Below, piece after piece: positions 137 through 9,052 of a DNA stretch of 64,000 nucleotides. Source of the DNA: an uncultured Bacteroidales bacterium (GTDB lineage: Bacteria; Bacteroidota; Bacteroidia; Bacteroidales; CAIXZF01). The DNA lies in NCBI GenBank assembly GCA_903923925.1, contig CAIXZF010000072.1, positions 1 through 64,000 on the forward strand, given 5' to 3'. Numbering within the stretch: position 1 is the stretch's first letter; each line of letters opens with the position of its first letter. Below the pieces are notes generated by a model. The model worked only from the letters and a program-made list of their open reading frames with translations, ran no database searches and was not told where the DNA came from. The position numbers and the translations under genes were made by a program.

Positions 137-430
137 TTAGATAATAAAATCATGCAATGCTTCCTGAAAAATTGCCTTCAATGCAGTTATTTTGCCATCA
201 TATGATTTCGCATTTTCAAGTTCAGCTTTTAACTTGTAACCGATCTTGGTTTTTGATGCAAAGAGACCTGATAATTCATTATTGCCAAAATCTTTAGTAA
301 ACTTTGCTATGAACAGATAAAACCGTTCAGTAAGAGATTGGTAATTTTTATCGGTAATATCTTGTTGGCTTGCTTCAAGAAACAGGATATATCTTTGAGT
401 AAAGTCCTTTATAATTATATCCTTGTCCAT
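137..430 (-). CDS. Small hypothetical protein (97 aa)
   Basis: An ATG-started 97-residue protein with no signal peptide or membrane segment. It is charged, probably helical and likely cytosolic (DKDIIIKDFTQRYILFLEAS at the start). No family is recognised. It is followed at once by another possible small gene on the same strand. Codon use looks ordinary for the neighbourhood. Called on length, a clean start and the absence of any competing frame, so the coding call is moderate and no function is proposed. Confidence 0.5.
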   Translation of the reverse strand: MDKDIIIKDFTQRYILFLEASQQDITDKNYQSLTERFYLFIAKFTKDFGNNELSGLFASKTKIGYKLKAELENAKSYDGKITALKAIFQEALHDFII

Positions 431-608
431 GTTTCTGAATTAGTTAATTGATTATCCTCATTTTAAATGAATAATCCGGAGTAAACCATGCCACTATTCC
501 GGAGCAAAGCAGGCCACTTGTCTGTGTAAATGTACTTCAATATGTTTTTCAAAGATACGATCTGTAGTAATGTCGCAATAAATGGAATTATTTTATATTT
601 TTGAAAAC

Positions 609-722
609 AATATCGGATATCAAGACACTAAGATCCCCTGGTGACCCAGTGGGGCATTCCCAAGATATGTGCAACGGAGTTGACCCTCCCGTCCACGCAC
701 TGACTGATGTCCGGTATTTTTT
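609..722 (+). ncRNA. Candidate structured RNA, tandem copy 1
   Basis: The ends form a 14-bp helix (609-622 with 705-718) that is complete if two G-U wobbles are allowed at 613/714 and 618/709. Those wobbles are valid only if the plus strand is the RNA. A T6 tract (717-722) follows the helix, as in an intrinsic terminator. Inside lies a 43-base core (623-665) that is 40/43 identical to the core of copy 2. The core holds a hairpin, 635-641 with 646-653, with loop TGAC and a bulged T650. A perfect Bacteroidota -7 box TATTTTTG (596-603) places the expected transcription start at about 609, where the helix begins. I do not recognise the family. The structure was read by eye, not folded. Confidence 0.55.
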
Positions 723-727
723 GATTT

Positions 728-832
728 AAAACCGGTCGGGAGACACTAAGATCCACTGGTGACCCAGTTGGGCAATCCCAAGACGTAGGCATCGGTTAAC
801 CACCGTGGGCGCCTTAACCCTGACCGGTTTTT
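728..832 (+). ncRNA. Candidate structured RNA, tandem copy 2
   Basis: Second copy of the element at 609-722. The terminal helix pairs 728-740 with 818-831 (13 bp, one bulged T821) and is followed by T5 (828-832). Its sequence is wholly unlike the helix of copy 1 although the position is the same, so pairing rather than sequence is conserved. The core 741-783 matches 623-665. Within the core hairpin, base pair A755-T769 replaces C637-G651, a compensatory change. The GGG at 770-772 can pair either upstream with the hairpin or downstream with CCC 777-779, so two conformations are possible. TATTTTTTG (715-723), overlapping the T tract of copy 1, sits just before the helix and could act as its own -7 box. 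Confidence 0.55.
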
Positions 833-859
833 ATGTGGATCAAACCGAAAAACCTATTA

Positions 860-2398
860 CTACCGCAGAACAATCAATTTCACTGTCTTCAGTGCCCGTT
901 CATCTGCGGTAGTTAAGGTTAGTAAATAAACACCTGCCTGAATATCTTCTATACTGTAATGTCCAAACCCCTGCTTTCCTTTGAATTCCCATTCTTTAAA
1001 TAAAATCCCGGAAGTATTATACAATCGTAAATGGTAGGTCCCTGAATATTCTTGGTTGTTAAGCTTGTAGTTAAAATAATCTTGCGCAGGATTAGGCCAA
1101 ACTGCAACATCTGTAACTTCTTTTGTAAGTTCAGGATTACTGGTAATAATATTAATCCCCAGTGAATCACAAATAGTTCCATCAATTGGGCCTAATCGAA
1201 AATTTGGGAAATTGGGAATTGAAGAAGAATTGAAAGTATTTAGATGAATAGAATGTTGCAAAACGTTGCAAGATATCCCTTCATTATTTGGTTGATCAAT
1301 AACATGAAGAAATCTAGTAGTACCAGGCGTACAAACATAAATTTTGTTATCATAACCAGATTGCATTAGAAAAAATCGAGTCTGAGCTGGGAATAAGGGA
1401 TCTGTGAATCCATCATATATTGCAACGATCTGGCGGGTTGAAGCAATATCGGTTGCTAACAGATCGTATTGATCAATCCGTTGGTCAGCTGAAACATACA
1501 TGAATCTTGAGTTCGGAGATATTGCCACTCCACATGCATATGCAGAATCCTGATACCAAAGATTTCGATAATTACTTAATGTACCTGTACACCTATCAAA
1601 ATCAAACACTTCTAATCGGTAGGGATGAAATAAACTGGCACCACCCCATCTCACGTATTTACTTCCATCCGGTGAGAAGCAGGATTGTGATAATTCTGGA
1701 ATGATCGAAGCAGTTCCAATTGTTTGAATAGAGTCTTGAAAAATTCCCTGGGCACAAAATAGAAATCTGTAATATCTGTTATGTTTAAATTCAGGAACTA
1801 TAATCCACCAGTCTCTTCCATTGGCATGGCGGGTAGCAGTGATACAACCATAGTCTAGAGTATCATTTAATAGTAATACATTCTTTAGTTCAACATCTCC
1901 TAATCCCCCATCAAGATCCATATTAACAATTGAACAATAAAACCCCATTGTAAGATCAAAATAGGGCGCAGAAAATTCTAATTTTTCATGAAAAATATAA
2001 TAATAATTTGGAGACCCCGGTAATGGTAAGATTAAAGCCCCTTGGGGCATAGTATAGCCGTAATAGCCAAAGTAGTTATACAAATCACCATAATTAATTG
2101 AATCTCCATGTGGCATAATTTGGTGATTACTATTTGCAACGTACATCGCATTCGTATAGAAAAGGAGATTGCCATTTGTATCTGATATGGAAGCATTGGC
2201 AATATCGATACTAATCTGCTGACTAACATAAGAAACAGAGAGTGGGTTTTGGTTGAAATTCAAACAAGTACCTCCAAAGTTAGGTGGTGAATTCTCATAC
2301 CCAAACATCCAAATATTATCTCGCCTATGATCACAAGGATATTGTGAGAAGACTGAATAACTTGAAAGCATTAATAGGAATACAAATAATCTTCTCAT
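860..2398 (-). CDS. Secreted T9SS cargo protein, YVTN/WD40-like propeller
   Basis: A 512-residue protein with an N-terminal signal peptide (about residues 1-18, MRRLFVFLLMLSSYSVFSQ). The body opens with the DNIWMFGYENSPPNFGG and DTNGNLLFYTN motifs typical of Bacteroidota secreted beta-propeller proteins ('NIWYFG' type). The last 80 or so residues (VAVWPNPAQDYFNYKL to LKTVKLIVLR) form a type A T9SS sorting domain: a WPNPA start, a beta-sandwich, and GVYLLTL near the end. The protein is therefore expected to be exported by Sec, moved across the outer membrane by T9SS, and attached to the surface or released. It stands alone on the minus strand, and its 3' end faces the tandem RNA candidates. 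The ligand or substrate is unknown. Confidence 0.85.
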   Translation of the reverse strand: MRRLFVFLLMLSSYSVFSQYPCDHRRDNIWMFGYENSPPNFGGTCLNFNQNPLSVSYVSQQISIDIANASISDTNGNLLFYTNAMYVANSNHQIMPHGDSINYGDLYNYFGYYGYTMPQGALILPLPGSPNYYYIFHEKLEFSAPYFDLTMGFYCSIVNMDLDGGLGDVELKNVLLLNDTLDYGCITATRHANGRDWWIIVPEFKHNRYYRFLFCAQGIFQDSIQTIGTASIIPELSQSCFSPDGSKYVRWGGASLFHPYRLEVFDFDRCTGTLSNYRNLWYQDSAYACGVAISPNSRFMYVSADQRIDQYDLLATDIASTRQIVAIYDGFTDPLFPAQTRFFLMQSGYDNKIYVCTPGTTRFLHVIDQPNNEGISCNVLQHSIHLNTFNSSSIPNFPNFRLGPIDGTICDSLGINIITSNPELTKEVTDVAVWPNPAQDYFNYKLNNQEYSGTYHLRLYNTSGILFKEWEFKGKQGFGHYSIEDIQAGVYLLTLTTADERALKTVKLIVLR

Positions 2399-2595: not shown

Positions 2596-3045
2596 TTAAC
2601 AGATAACTTCAAACTTTTTAGGAGTATTCATCACACTTGCATCCCGAATTTGAGAATTTACAGGATTTATTAATTTGTAAGGCCGGTTAAATGCTTCCTG
2701 AGAAACTTTGAAATATTTTGACAGATTCCGGATAATTTCCTTAGACAATCCTCTTTTATAGTGCAAAATATCTGAAATCAGGCCTTTGCTTACTCCTAAA
2801 ATAACTACCAGGTCTTTCGCCTTTAAATGATGATCATGCATTAAAGAATGAAGCAACTCAATAGGATTAACTTGATTCAAGGTAGCATGATCAGCATCCC
2901 ATTTTTCAATCAGGAAGGTCAGCAATTCAATCTCGTCAGCGGAATCGATATTGGTATCATTGTTTCCAAGAAGATCCCCCAGTACTTTACAATATGAAAT
3001 GTACTGGCTTTCTGATTTAATTACGGTATACTTTAGAGCGGCCAT
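2596..3045 (-). CDS. higA: HigA-type antitoxin, HTH regulator
   Basis: A 149-residue cytosolic protein. The middle (about residues 60-115) is an HTH_3/XRE DNA-binding domain, seen in LKAKDLVVILGVSKGLISDIL and the following KRGLSKEIIRNLSKYFKVS. The tail SQEAFNRPYKL is typical of HigA antitoxins encoded after HigB. It starts 11 bases after the toxin gene, toxin first, which is the usual order for this family. Its role is to bind and neutralise HigB and, with HigB, to repress the operon. The 31-bp palindrome upstream of higB (3410-3440) is the obvious operator. The last ~25 residues extend beyond the HTH region and are not recognised. Confidence 0.85.
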   Translation of the reverse strand: MAALKYTVIKSESQYISYCKVLGDLLGNNDTNIDSADEIELLTFLIEKWDADHATLNQVNPIELLHSLMHDHHLKAKDLVVILGVSKGLISDILHYKRGLSKEIIRNLSKYFKVSQEAFNRPYKLINPVNSQIRDASVMNTPKKFEVIC

Positions 3046-3056
3046 TGTTAATAGAA

Positions 3057-3389
3057 TTAATATGCATCAACAGTGTATTGTTCATTATGTTTACAGAGTT
3101 CATCGTATTCTGTATGAGAACCGATCCAACAAACAAATAAATGAACTTTCACAGTACCAAAATGAAAGTGACAAACAATCCGATAATTATTACCGCCAAT
3201 ATCAAAAACTACCCTGTTGCTTCCCTTACCTAACAAATCGGCTGTCCCAAAAGTCTGTTGAATATCATTTGGCGTTTCCCAATCTGCATATTTTATCCCA
3301 GTTAACCAAAACTCAAACGATCTTTTGGCAGAGGCATGAGAAGCCACAAAATTTTCAATTGTTTGCTGTTTAATTAAATGTACTTTCAT
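3057..3389 (-). CDS. higB: HigB-type toxin (ribosome-dependent mRNA interferase)
   Basis: A 110-residue protein of the RelE-like HigB family, expected to cleave mRNA at the ribosome. Diagnostic features are W..P.DI followed by FGTADLL, then NRVVFDIGGNNYRIVCHF and the end motif VCWIGSHTEYDEL. The ATG at 3387-3389 is preferred over a GTG at 3422, because the GTG would place the first codons inside the 3410-3440 palindrome and because family members begin near this methionine. It is the first gene of a two-gene operon with higA. Length is normal and no key residue is obviously missing, so the toxin is probably functional. Confidence 0.85.
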   Translation of the reverse strand: MKVHLIKQQTIENFVASHASAKRSFEFWLTGIKYADWETPNDIQQTFGTADLLGKGSNRVVFDIGGNNYRIVCHFHFGTVKVHLFVCWIGSHTEYDELCKHNEQYTVDAY

Positions 3390-3409
3390 GCAAAGATACA
3401 ATATTTTTG

Positions 3410-3440
3410 ATATAAAGTTCACATTATGTAAACTTTATAT
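3410..3440. promoter_or_regulatory. 31-bp palindromic operator candidate of higBA
   Basis: The two 15-base arms (3410-3424 and 3426-3440) are inverted copies of each other with a single mismatch (C3420 against A3430), around a central T at 3425. The inner part reads AAGTTCACAT then ATGTAAACTT. The palindrome ends about 20 bases upstream of the higB start codon. This fits a site bound by a HigA dimer or HigBA complex for autoregulation. Position and symmetry are seen directly; the protein-DNA pairing is inferred. Confidence 0.65.
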
Positions 3441-5148: not shown

Positions 5149-6200
5149 TTATTCACCTTTTAGCCGTTTTATTTCTTTATCAAAATCAGATTCATAAATT
5201 TTGTCCTGAATTATTCTGTATGAATCATACTCTTGTTCTACTTTTAATTTAGCTTCTAATGCAGAAACCTTTCCTTTGTCTTTTAGAATTGGGAAGCTGG
5301 ATAATTCCAAAAACTGGTGTAAAAAAATAATCCAATCATGCATTGTCGTGGGAATCAGCCTTTCTGCTCTGCTTTCCGCTAAGTCAAGATATGCAGAAAC
5401 AATCCTATTGAGTTCTTTGATATGTTGTTCGTTCAAATAATTCTTAGCGATTGAAACATCTGATTTTAGTATTTTACCATCTGGTGCATGTTTCCAATTT
5501 GTCAATCCAATGTATATTTTCGAAGCATCCGCTGAGGAGTATATAATTTCAGCTGCTGTTTTCCTGTTATTGCCCAGTGAAGCTTATTTTGGACTGTGGC
5601 AAAAAATTCCTTTGTTAATAAATCTGAATTGTCATAATCAATTGAAAGCGAATAAATGTCTGTGATTTTCTGATAAAACCTTCTTTCACTTGCTCGAATT
5701 TCACGAATCCGTTCAAGCAATTCATCAAAATAATCTTTACCGAAATGTTTTCCTTGTTTTAAACGTTCATCATCCAAAACAAATCCCTTGGTAATAAACT
5801 CTGTTAAAACCTTTGTAGCCCAAATTCTAAATTTAGTCGCTTTATTAGAGTTTACACGATATCCAACTGCTATTATTGCATCAAGATTATAGAAAGTTGT
5901 TTTATAGTTTTTTCCATCTTCGGCAGTATGTTCCAAAATGGAACTAACTGAATCTTGGTGTAATTCGCCACTCTCAAAAATATTGGTAAGATGTTTAGTA
6001 ATTGATGGTCTTTGGACTCCAAAAAGTTCGCTAATTTTCTTTTGTGTCATCCAAAACGTATCGCCGTGGTAGAAAACCTCAATTTTTACACTTCCATCAT
6101 CACCTTGGTAAAATATAATTTCAGATTCTTTTGCCATTCTTTTTTCTTCAAAAATAATCTTTTGATGCGTAATTTCTTGATTGCTTTGATTATTTAGCAT
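5149..6200 (-). pseudogene. rhuM: RhuM family protein, split by a one-base frameshift
   Basis: Two adjacent frames together make one full-length RhuM (virulence RhuM / Fic-DOC-associated family, usually about 330-350 residues). The first part (ATG at 6200, or ATG at 6137, which is nearer the usual family start) runs to FFATVQNKLHWAITGK and then into nonsense. The second frame restores TNWKHAPDGKILKSDVSIAK through DFDKEIKRLKGE. Adding one A to the AAAA run (plus-strand T 5559-5562) joins them exactly as GKTAAEIIYSSADASKIYIG, the family's normal sequence. The gene is therefore recently inactivated, slippage-switched, or carries a sequencing error. RhuM genes are common in accessory and defence islands; the molecular role is unknown. 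A copy of the repeated 3' end lies on each side. Confidence 0.85.
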
Positions 6201-6240
6201 GAATGCCAAAATTTGTGCGTGTTTGTCTCTCCGCTATTTT

Positions 6241-6634: not shown

Positions 6635-7597
6635 CTATGGTTTATACCAATCAATTACTAATTTTTTAATCTGATTTTCTATATGAGTAATTATTTGATT
6701 TATCAATTTCTTTACAGCATTTTCAGTATCTGCGTTTGCTTCATTAAAAGTATTGTAGCCAATTAAAGCGCATTTAGCAGCCAAAGAAAAAGGCGCAGAT
6801 GGTAAAGCCATAAGCGTAATGTTTTCAATTAAAGAAGGGATAAGTTTACTGTCAGGATTTTCAGAAATTATCAGGAGTAACATATCTACAAGGTTTCTGC
6901 AGTTTTCATAAACTTCTTGCCTTCCTTTTTTAAAAACGGAATCATTTAATCTAAAAAGTTCTATTGTCACTACAGCTCTTAAATAATTAAATCCATCATT
7001 CTTCCATCCTATAGGTAAATTGTCAAAATCTGTTTGAGTAAGTTGTATTTTCGGGGCAATAGGTGCTATTTCTCCATTTGGTTTTACATACAACAAATTG
7101 GCATCGTGCTTATTAGTTGGGTCAAGAAAGTAAGGGAATTCATTTGTTGACCAAGGGTATTGGCCAGCAATTAATCTTGTTGTTGATTTAGCGAGAGGAA
7201 AATATATGTGTTTAGCACCACCTCTGTTAGTAATAGCTGTGACTATTCTATAATTTCTATAATCAAATATTAACCAAGGATAATTTCCTGCTGTATCATT
7301 CTGTTCATATTTAATTCCTGATAAATTTTCAATTTTTTTAATCTGTTTAGCAGTTAAAGGCAATGCTTGATTTTTGGGTCTGAAATGCTCAACATCCCTG
7401 GCAAAGTCATCACCTTGAGGTAGTTCACAGTACCAACATTTTGAAATTGGGTGCTTTCCTGATATAAGTCGGGCACTCTCTGCCAAATATTCTTTTAAAT
7501 CAGTCCAGTCACCATCAACTTTGTCAGCTTTTAATCTCCATCCAACCAAGTCTGCATGATTATCAAGATCTAATCTAGGGTACGGTATATAGTTCAT
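6635..7597 (-). CDS. PtuB-like HNH nuclease of a Septu-type system
   Basis: A 320-residue protein with the TIGR02646/PtuB-type HNH region: a first zinc pair C54-W-Y-C57, then the core motif DVEHFRPK (H71), then the YPWLIFDYRNYR block with N115, and a final N124..K129.YFPL. In typical members the segment before that Asn carries a second CxxC pair; here it reads TAITNRGG, so the second zinc knuckle is lost. In Septu and some retron systems PtuB acts as the toxic nuclease controlled by the PtuA ATPase after phage sensing. The gene starts 15 bases after the ATPase gene on the same strand, the usual order. The family assignment is strong; activity is inferred. Confidence 0.75.
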   Translation of the reverse strand: MNYIPYPRLDLDNHADLVGWRLKADKVDGDWTDLKEYLAESARLISGKHPISKCWYCELPQGDDFARDVEHFRPKNQALPLTAKQIKKIENLSGIKYEQNDTAGNYPWLIFDYRNYRIVTAITNRGGAKHIYFPLAKSTTRLIAGQYPWSTNEFPYFLDPTNKHDANLLYVKPNGEIAPIAPKIQLTQTDFDNLPIGWKNDGFNYLRAVVTIELFRLNDSVFKKGRQEVYENCRNLVDMLLLIISENPDSKLIPSLIENITLMALPSAPFSLAAKCALIGYNTFNEANADTENAVKKLINQIITHIENQIKKLVIDWYKP

Positions 7598-7612
7598 ATA
7601 TTCAAAACAGGA

Positions 7613-9052
7613 TTATTTCTTAAATAATTCATTAATTATTCTAGTTACTTCTTTTTCAACATTTTCTGTTGAATCTTGTGTAAGTGAAATTGTTTTATTT
7701 TTGAAGTATTTCTGCAAGTTATCTTTAATAATTTTTGTAATTGGATCTTCATTTGTAAGTTGCAATGCTGGGTCTAATCTCAATATGGAGAGCTCTCTTG
7801 ATAATCTCTTAAATGAATCATTTTCATTTGGAGTAAGTTTAGACTCCTTTGATTTATTAAAAAGGTATCTGTATTCCTCATTCCATTTCAAAAATTGATG
7901 ATCCATCGTACTACTTAGCCCAAAAATTTTCGTTAAAATTTCATCGGCTCCTAATCCAATAATGTCTTCATCTGGATTTGTTGAAATTCTTTTTCCTTCG
8001 TTATCATAGGATAAGATATGTACTTGCTCTTTTTTTAATCCATTTAGTAATAATGGAGAATGGGTTGTAACTATAAATTGTACATTCTTGAATGTTTCTT
8101 GCAATCTAAGTAATGTGTCATTTTGCATAGTTGGGTGTAAGTGAATTCCAAACTCATCAATTAATACAACACCATGTATTTTTTCTAACACTTCTTTACC
8201 CAGGTATTTATTTAAAATAAAAGCTCTTGTCGCCAATTCTCCTGCTAATAGTATAAGATATCTATAACCATCGCTTAACATATTAAATGGTCTAATTTCT
8301 CCATTTGATAATTTGACCACAAGTTGTTTGATATCATTAGACCATTCGATTTCTCTTATGTCAGGGAGAACTGATTTTACAGCTTTCTTGAAAACGTACA
8401 TTGCGTTTTCTGGCAGGTCTTTATAAGTTTCTGCTAGAATTGGCTTACGGTCAACTTCTAAAATTAGATTATCAATTCTAGCAATCCAATTAAACAGATA
8501 TTTTTTAATTGATTTGTCCTCAAAACAACCTTTGTAGCCATCGATGCTTTTACCATTTACATCCCATTTAACTGTATTGGATGACTCAACATGAATGTAT
8601 TCTGTTCCTATAAAACCTAGTAAAGGTTGAATAGCCTTCCCTTCACTAACTAATTTGTTAATTCTTTTACTTTCCTTCCTTGGATCAATGCCTTGAACTA
8701 TTTCAACTTTGGTCCTTTCACCGTAAGGTTTTGATTTATATTTCTTCCAAGTTGTTTGTACTTCTTTTCCCTTTGAATCAATTATTAAAGCTGTTGACTG
8801 GATAGAAACTTCAGGAGAAATATCAGCTATAGGATTAGTACCAATAATTCTGTGATCTTGAATTTGTAATTGCCATTCAGATTTAAGTCCACTTGTATAA
8901 GTATTTGCAGCAATTCTTAGCGCTGACATTAACGCTGATTTCCCAAGCATATTCTCAGCAATGATAATATGGGTGTTAAAATTAGAGTCAAAGGAAATGC
9001 TAAATGCCTCAAAACATCTAAAGTCCTGTAATACAAGATTTAAGATTCTCAT
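7613..9052 (-). CDS. PtuA-like AAA ATPase of a Septu-type system
   Basis: A 479-residue OLD/RecF-like ATPase (AAA_21-type). The N-terminus MRILNLVLQDFRCFEAFSIS is the usual beta-strand/FRCF opening. The Walker A is A32-ENMLGKS39, with Ala in place of the first Gly. The C-terminal half has a signature-like SDGYRYLILLAGEL, Walker B GVVLIDEFGIHLHP, and the H-switch VTTHSPLLL. It forms a two-gene unit with the HNH gene downstream. Together they fit Septu (PtuAB) or the equivalent effector pair of some retrons, but no reverse transcriptase is present here. A copy of the repeated 3' end (9247-9491) lies about 195 bases upstream and another lies after the pair. Confidence 0.75.
   Translation of the reverse strand: MRILNLVLQDFRCFEAFSISFDSNFNTHIIIAENMLGKSALMSALRIAANTYTSGLKSEWQLQIQDHRIIGTNPIADISPEVSIQSTALIIDSKGKEVQTTWKKYKSKPYGERTKVEIVQGIDPRKESKRINKLVSEGKAIQPLLGFIGTEYIHVESSNTVKWDVNGKSIDGYKGCFEDKSIKKYLFNWIARIDNLILEVDRKPILAETYKDLPENAMYVFKKAVKSVLPDIREIEWSNDIKQLVVKLSNGEIRPFNMLSDGYRYLILLAGELATRAFILNKYLGKEVLEKIHGVVLIDEFGIHLHPTMQNDTLLRLQETFKNVQFIVTTHSPLLLNGLKKEQVHILSYDNEGKRISTNPDEDIIGLGADEILTKIFGLSSTMDHQFLKWNEEYRYLFNKSKESKLTPNENDSFKRLSRELSILRLDPALQLTNEDPITKIIKDNLQKYFKNKTISLTQDSTENVEKEVTRIINELFKK

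Follow-up and report, generated by a model that had tools for sequence, protein, structure and literature searches.

The window analysed here, 64,000 nucleotides at the start of a contig of an uncultured Bacteroidales bacterium, carries near its beginning two tandem units on the plus strand, each ~110 nt long and formed of three helices round a junction (Table 1). A convergent gene follows (860-2398, minus strand), whose product bears a T9SS type A sorting domain (the earlier note had called it a T9SS gene), and within some kb of the units lie a HigB/HigA-like pair and RhuM, PtuA/PtuB and Fic genes. The genes for the HigB-like toxin and HigA-like antitoxin (2596-3422, minus strand) also match PADLOC PD-Lambda-2 A and B. 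The RhuM-family (PDC-S05) gene is split between overlapping frames, 235 and 118 aa long (5149-6209, minus strand), which match successive parts of the same profiles and thus point to an apparent frameshift. A PtuB-like HNH gene adjoins a PtuA-like ATPase gene to form a Septu-like pair (6635-9052, minus strand); no reverse transcriptase was found among the window proteins tested. Searches with the 97-aa neighbour of the units (137-430, minus strand) matched nothing in Pfam, PADLOC, NCBIfam or plasmids.

Positions 124-139 of the window (TGAATTATTCAGGTTA) carry a motif, TGAATWATTCAGGYTA, that occurs in the genome 11 times exactly and 14 times with one mismatch allowed. Since 6 of these 14 matches lie at contig bases 88-144, the assembly is probably interrupted there by a repeated IS-like end. 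The possibility that the RNA is part of this contig-end repeat was rejected, given 11 exact matches for the motif versus two copies for the RNA.

Two tandem units and their homologs

Table 1. Coordinates of the paired units, their flanking signals and the genes around the prophage-borne homolog (G001)
Feature	Position	Strand	Basis or remark
-7 box, TATTTTTG	596-603	+	Exact TAnnTTTG, 5 nt before the unit 1 closing helix
Structured RNA unit 1 (W1)	608-721	+	Fold; covariance model match 106 bits (training sequence); pair counts
Unit 1 closing helix	609-622/705-718	+	14 pairs, 2 of them G-U
Unit 1 hairpins	635-641/646-653 and 669-677/689-700	+	Fold
T tract of unit 1 / near-match -7 box for unit 2, TATTTTTTG	715-723	+	Sequence; T tract itself 717-722
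Structured RNA unit 2 (W2)	727-834	+	Fold; covariance model match 112 bits (training sequence); identity to G040 unit a 85%
Unit 2 closing helix	728-740/819-831	+	13 pairs, 1 of them G-U
Unit 2 hairpins	753-759/764-771 and 787-795/803-814	+	Fold
T tract after unit 2	828-832	+	Sequence
Portal_Mu/Phage_Mu_F/PBECR2 gene	L006 1413-4028		G001 Mu-like prophage
Phage_tail_S gene (tail/neck-type)	L006 4146-4754		G001 Mu-like prophage

The earlier note had described two units that share a 43-base core while their terminal helices differ in sequence yet pair in both, and this description holds: positions 623-665 and 741-783 are identical at 40 of 43 bases (93% over 43 nt), the repeat stretches without gaps to 55 nt at 85%, and the two closing helices, although different in sequence, form the 14 and 13 pairs claimed. 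The compensated C-G to A-T core pair was likewise recovered, C637-G651 of unit 1 being replaced in unit 2 by A755 paired with U768 or U769 (one U is bulged in either register), and the two ways of pairing proposed for the core GGG returned as alternative folds.

A BLAST search with positions 596-840 gave matches in 3 of 98 related genomes, the window's own (G000) included. G040, from the same order and another family, carries two units in tandem on a 3,281-base contig, and G001, from the same family as the window genome, carries one. The five units (W1, W2, G040a, G040b and G001) were used to build a covariance model, R1, with which overlapping draws of genomes were searched; with 9-12 candidates scored in each genome, weak members may have escaped detection. 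Among the genomes drawn from the order, the model detected the family in 3 of 393, one of them being that of the window; it did so in 1 of 395 genomes at the level of the class and 1 of 395 at that of the phylum (in both cases the window's own), and in 2 of 294 genomes in a draw that was centred on G040 and from which G000 is absent. When 150 candidates were scored per genome, the copies numbered two in G000, one in G001 and two in G040, with no further ones, in draft assemblies of 117, about 30 and about 310 contigs, respectively, which may lose repeats. Phages, plasmids and E. coli genomes gave no match by blastn, viral contigs yielded no homolog to strict sequence patterns, and 17 loci, mostly Mu-like phage or prophage regions, held no model match at E 1. 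The covariance model and genome search suggested by the earlier note thus led to relatives beyond the window's two copies (five units in three genomes in all), with their pairing supported. The family is real but very rare.

Several weaker candidates were discarded. A model match in genome G279 (L009 2019-2118, 16.2 bits, E 0.14 in 95 kb) has ends that pair, but it is the 3' end of a coding gene, which we take from its translation to be OmpA-like; its row stands in alignment A4 and is absent from A5, the alignment on which all counts were made. Short DNA matches in G219 (E 0.004) and G279 (E 0.003) had no model support: at E 1 the model found nothing in L010 and, in L009, only 2019-2118, away from the short DNA match.

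Thermodynamic support from folding alone is modest, plus strands folding 1.7-2.6 sd better than shuffles. Shuffled sequences folded at least as well as unit 1 in 4 of 300 cases and as unit 2 in 5 of 300; for slightly longer stretches the counts were 3 of 200 and 8 of 200, and the longer stretch of unit 2 did better on the minus strand (1 of 200) than on the plus strand. The plus-strand z scores were -2.4 (W1), -2.6 (W2), -2.3 (G040a), -1.7 (G040b) and -2.6 (G001), against -0.7, -3.2, -1.5, -0.6 and -2.5 for the minus strands in the same order, W2 and G001 having lower energies on the minus strand than on the plus. The weight of the RNA case comes from the homologs. No pseudoknot of at least three pairs beyond the known helices was found in common to all five units.

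In the model-fitted alignment of the five units (A5), 94.8% of the cells pair, compared with 82.9% after shuffling, and both sides have changed in 10 of 27 pairs, compared with a shuffled mean of 3.7 and a value that 0 of 500 shuffles reached; as all five units trained the model, the alignment and these counts are biased in favour of the structure. When the partners are slid by 1-3 columns, pairing falls to 33-51%. A plain search that is independent of the model found longest uninterrupted end helices of 14, 13, 13, 12 and 12 pairs on the plus strand, versus 4, 10, 6, 8 and 12 on the minus strand. In G001 the arms of hairpin 2 are swapped (CCAGU..ACUGG for ACUGG..CCAGU) and still pair.

Of the 60 closing-helix cells, 52 are Watson-Crick, 8 are G-U on the plus strand and none is A-C; the 8 G-U cells fall in six pairs, one of them common to three units, and thus represent fewer than eight independent events. 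The whole structure has 10 G-U cells, 1 A-C cell and 6 other non-pair cells, the sole A-C cell belonging to the diverged hairpin 2 of G040 unit b, which is off the consensus pairing. This G-U-only pattern in the closing helix points to a plus-strand RNA, in agreement with the two G-U pairs of unit 1 that the earlier note had called legal on that strand only and that are borne out among the closing-helix pairs. The choice of strand follows from the G-U pattern and the leader box described below, not from folding energy.

Two alternatives can be weighed here. A DNA-level element, either a palindromic MITE- or REP-like insertion or a recombination or replication site working as folded single-stranded DNA, would suit the imperfect terminal inverted repeats (ACCGGTC..GACCGGT), the scattered occurrence, the prophage site and the IS-like repeat nearby; we regard it as very unlikely, given that all 8 odd closing-helix pairs are G-U on one strand, that a promoter-type box lies outside the repeat and that, in place of the many copies of MITE, REP or BIME elements, 1-2 copies per genome were found in the drafts of G000, G001 and G040, which may lose repeats. 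A short protein gene, for which the 43-nt core can be read in one frame as ..TLRSxGDPVGxSQD.. and ORF 601-729 (plus strand) spans unit 1, is barely credible: the changes are paired across helices, and by eye the frame stops at differing places in the other units, early in G040b, with no common start. Instead, a structured small RNA family very probably accounts for the five units, as judged from their sequences; the duplicated, covarying, plus-strand family without a name that the earlier note proposed is thereby upheld, through homologs, changed pairs, the G-U pattern and the lack of an Rfam match.

The units appear modular. In the window pair the J1/2-hairpin 2-J2/3 core is common to both units, whereas the closing helix and hairpin 3 vary; in the G040 pair it is hairpin 2 that varies, hairpin 3 and the 3' half being shared. 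Identity between window unit 2 and G040 unit a is 85%. The J1/2 strand reads GAGACACUAAGA and the J2/3 strand AAUCCCAAGAC. Over four units, fixed columns number 12 of 14 in J1/2, 11 of 15 in J2/3 and 3 of 6 in J3/1, as against 11 of 24 in P1, 8 of 14 in the P2 helix and 9 of 16 in the P3 helices; over all five units, they number 8 of 14 in J1/2, 5 of 15 in J2/3, 11 of 24 in P1 and 9 of 16 in the P3 helices. The J1/2 and J2/3 strands are thus the best-kept parts in four of the five units, while the hairpin arms change, but not across all five. From these five sequences, it seems that a cassette of leader plus two units was moved or kept together and that parts were swapped between units.

Leader, tails and the prophage site

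The sequence TAnnTTTG is the Bacteroidota -7 consensus, as quoted in an excerpt of PMC7366714. An exact copy precedes unit 1, another lies before G040 unit b, the first of the two G040 units, and the G001 unit is preceded by the box TATCTTTG, which is what a Bacteroides-type small RNA promoter would predict. The chance of TAnnTTTG in a 25-nt stretch of the AT-rich parts of the window is 1.4% (plus strand) to 2.6% (minus strand). Within 150 nt upstream of the window's ORFs, the box occurs in 9 of 37 cases in sense and in 6 of 37 in antisense; within the window it is therefore not clearly a promoter mark. The leaders of window unit 1 and G040 unit b are identical in 31 of 35 alignment columns, whereas the units behind them share only 48% identity, and the similarity between window and G040 fades farther upstream of the leader and stops right after the second unit.

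The earlier note had placed a -7-like box before each unit and a promoter and terminator within each. For the first unit the box is exact, and its recurrence in the window, G040 and G001 supports a putative promoter of its own for this unit only. The sequence before unit 2, TATTTTTTG, has one T too many for the consensus, and the homologous position in the G040 spacer (before G040 unit a) has no -7 box, so that a second promoter does not appear to be conserved. A closing helix with a T-rich tail is present in 5 of 5 units, the window's T tracts among them, which makes termination at this point plausible. A standard terminator scan of the window returned no site; it considers loops of 3-8 nt and the unit stem closes ~80 nt, which is unusual for a terminator.

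The G001 unit lies on the minus strand of a Mu-like prophage, between the Portal_Mu/Phage_Mu_F/PBECR2 gene and the Phage_tail_S gene, and is antisense to the F gene. The former gene encodes a single 871-aa protein in which portal, Mu F and a C-terminal PBECR2 nuclease-like domain are fused. By eye, its frame runs into the unit, stopping shortly beyond the closing helix's 3' strand, and the final residues TGQG are unit-encoded; the homolog in G014 has the C-terminus ..GLLIK, and this comparison places the unit at the very end of the portal/F gene.

The same junction between portal and neck genes varies among related phages. Two Porphyromonas phages have ~250 nt there, in which a hypothetical gene of 41 aa is the sole annotation; a minus-strand hypothetical gene occupies the junction in Bacteroides phages p00 and BKO1-TP4, and small hypothetical genes do so in Peternella and lotta8-2. 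FPSV-S1 has a Dcm-type methylase gene right behind the F-like gene, the neck gene not being named there. Others have nothing evident at this place: in L016 and L019 the next ORF, taken here for the neck gene, comes after gaps of 69 and 86 nt, and in fF4 and G014 a tape-measure-type gene (annotated in fF4, our own reading in G014) lies ~130 nt past the F-like gene. The Porphyromonas stretch was itself examined: it is identical in PP754930.1 (L017, 5356-5609) and BK068094.1 (L034), which makes covariation uninformative, and positions 5340-5590 fold better than 200 of 200 shuffles on either strand, with TATATTTG on the minus strand. It is a candidate phage RNA. That it is a relative of the window RNA was not supported, as it had no model match.

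In G040, the RNA adjoins an 813-aa gene whose match to a defence methyltransferase is far below threshold (17.9 bits, cut-off 720), and the contig stops 140 nt past the unit. The IS-like motif is also found there, ~43 nt from the RNA (L005 82-97). No gene is common to the three neighbourhoods examined (window, G040 and G001), so no partner can be named. Going beyond the earlier note, we find that the family looks mobile as well as very rare. Its apparent mobility rests on context and scatter, that is, on the Mu-like prophage of G001, the defence-type genes of the window and the sporadic occurrence.

A possible mode of action

Comparison of the sequences establishes the units, their fold, a constrained strand, a conserved leader with a -7 box and a scattered, low-copy occurrence. 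That these units are both structured small RNAs, presumably transcribed independently, and cargo of mobile DNA within the order is probable, at somewhat lower confidence than the RNA family itself. Transcription would start just past the leader box, the closing helix and T tract would end each unit, and the RNA would act in trans. Because J1/2 and J2/3 are best kept in four of five units while the arms change, we read the junction as a binding site, most likely for a protein, in which case the RNA could serve as a decoy or in a regulatory ribonucleoprotein, and the tandem copies could provide dose or two recognition variants. The part of protein-binding decoy or scaffold is proposed tentatively, and a protein partner is favoured over base pairing with low confidence.

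A trans-acting, base-pairing small RNA like FopS or GibS, with the conserved unpaired strand GACACUAAGAUCC as its seed, is the rather unlikely alternative to a protein partner. In four units, 12 of the 14 J1/2 columns are indeed fixed, a box of its own and a T tract are the usual marks of B. thetaiotaomicron intergenic small RNAs (PMC7366714, in excerpt), and FopS acts by base pairing, paralogous Bacteroides small RNAs repressing mRNAs in this way (PMC11697453, in excerpt). However, the seed would lie inside a closed junction, unlike the FopS and GibS seeds, which the same excerpts place in a single-stranded 5' region, and it is altered in G040 unit b.

A search of the whole window against Rfam 15, with the gathering score as threshold, returned no family. 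Below threshold, the window had Atu_C10 on the minus strand (E 3.1), G040 had snoU36a (E 0.6) and Termite-leu (E 1.8) and G001 had none; these weak matches are inconsistent between units. A self-cleaving ribozyme or other catalytic RNA could present such a compact multi-helix fold, with junction strands conserved in four units, tandem copies and a mobile context, but it is highly unlikely, as there is no ribozyme family among the Rfam results and G040 unit b retains the core only in part. Some riboswitches stand in tandem, and a structured RNA with a possible terminator might be a cis-regulatory leader (riboswitch or attenuator); this we judge extremely unlikely, since no same-strand gene lies directly downstream in the window or G001, the window gene at 860 being convergent and the G001 unit antisense to the F gene. 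In type III toxin-antitoxin loci, the toxin gene comes immediately after its repeat RNA, in the same orientation, a layout absent from the window and G001 for the same reason. Retron RNAs have a reverse transcriptase gene adjacent, and no reverse transcriptase family was found among the proteins tested (9 from the window, 1 from G040 and 8 from G001).

If expressed, the units would offer a small, testable RNA that has a promoter, two natural variants and a setting in a prophage; they would also allow one to ask whether the portal-neck junction of Bacteroidota phages, which in several of them holds extra genes, is a site of RNA cargo. They add to Bacteroidota a covariation-backed RNA family beyond Rfam, one that occurs in a Mu-like prophage and close to defence-type genes.

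Comparison with known systems

Phage morons are cargo genes with their own promoter and terminator. The G001 unit resembles them in lying between two late genes, opposite to the operon, with its own box and T tract, and differs in that the cargo would be RNA rather than protein. One could imagine an RNA moron whose tandem RNAs, with a kept junction core and swappable arms, bind and disarm (or arm) a host defence or toxin protein, arm exchange between copies altering the protein variant recognised; we consider this specific scheme quite unlikely.

No published description of this RNA or its like was recognised in the sources at hand, among them excerpts of PMC11697453, PMC10367356 and PMC2864571. 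The c4 antisense RNA, listed in a table of PMC2864571, is also a phage-carried structured RNA, but no covariance match to it reached the gathering score. In arrangement, the nearest known system appears to be the STAXI motifs, structured repeats that, according to the excerpted text of PMC2864571, stand in tandem close to genes for DNA handling and antirestriction; STAXI consists mainly of a repeated pseudoknot, whereas the present family has three helices and no Rfam match at gathering score.

In kind, the Bacteroides small RNAs FopS and GibS appear nearest. GibS, as excerpts of PMC7366714 present it, is likewise intergenic with its own -7 box and a T tract, but its conserved 5' region is single-stranded and is accompanied by two hairpins and a plain terminator, whereas in the window family the closing helix ties up the 5' end and the units are in tandem, a comparison made by description. 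The FopS RNAs, as described in the excerpted parts of PMC11697453, are paralogous Bacteroides small RNAs that are bound by RbpB, have several copies per genome and sigma-ABfr type promoters, occur by sequence in a phage too and have their structure deposited in Rfam. They comprise a single-stranded 5' stretch and a terminator hairpin and were counted at 12-15 copies per genome in Bacteroidaceae, in contrast to the closed three-helix fold and the 1-2 sporadic copies seen here, again compared by description. We therefore file the units as a new family, outside Rfam, of structured small RNAs carried by mobile DNA, set apart by description from FopS and GibS. For the protein-binding role proposed above, FopS with RbpB may nonetheless serve as a precedent by analogy, being, in the excerpts of PMC11697453, a protein-bound small RNA family from the same phylum, with an occurrence in a phage as well.
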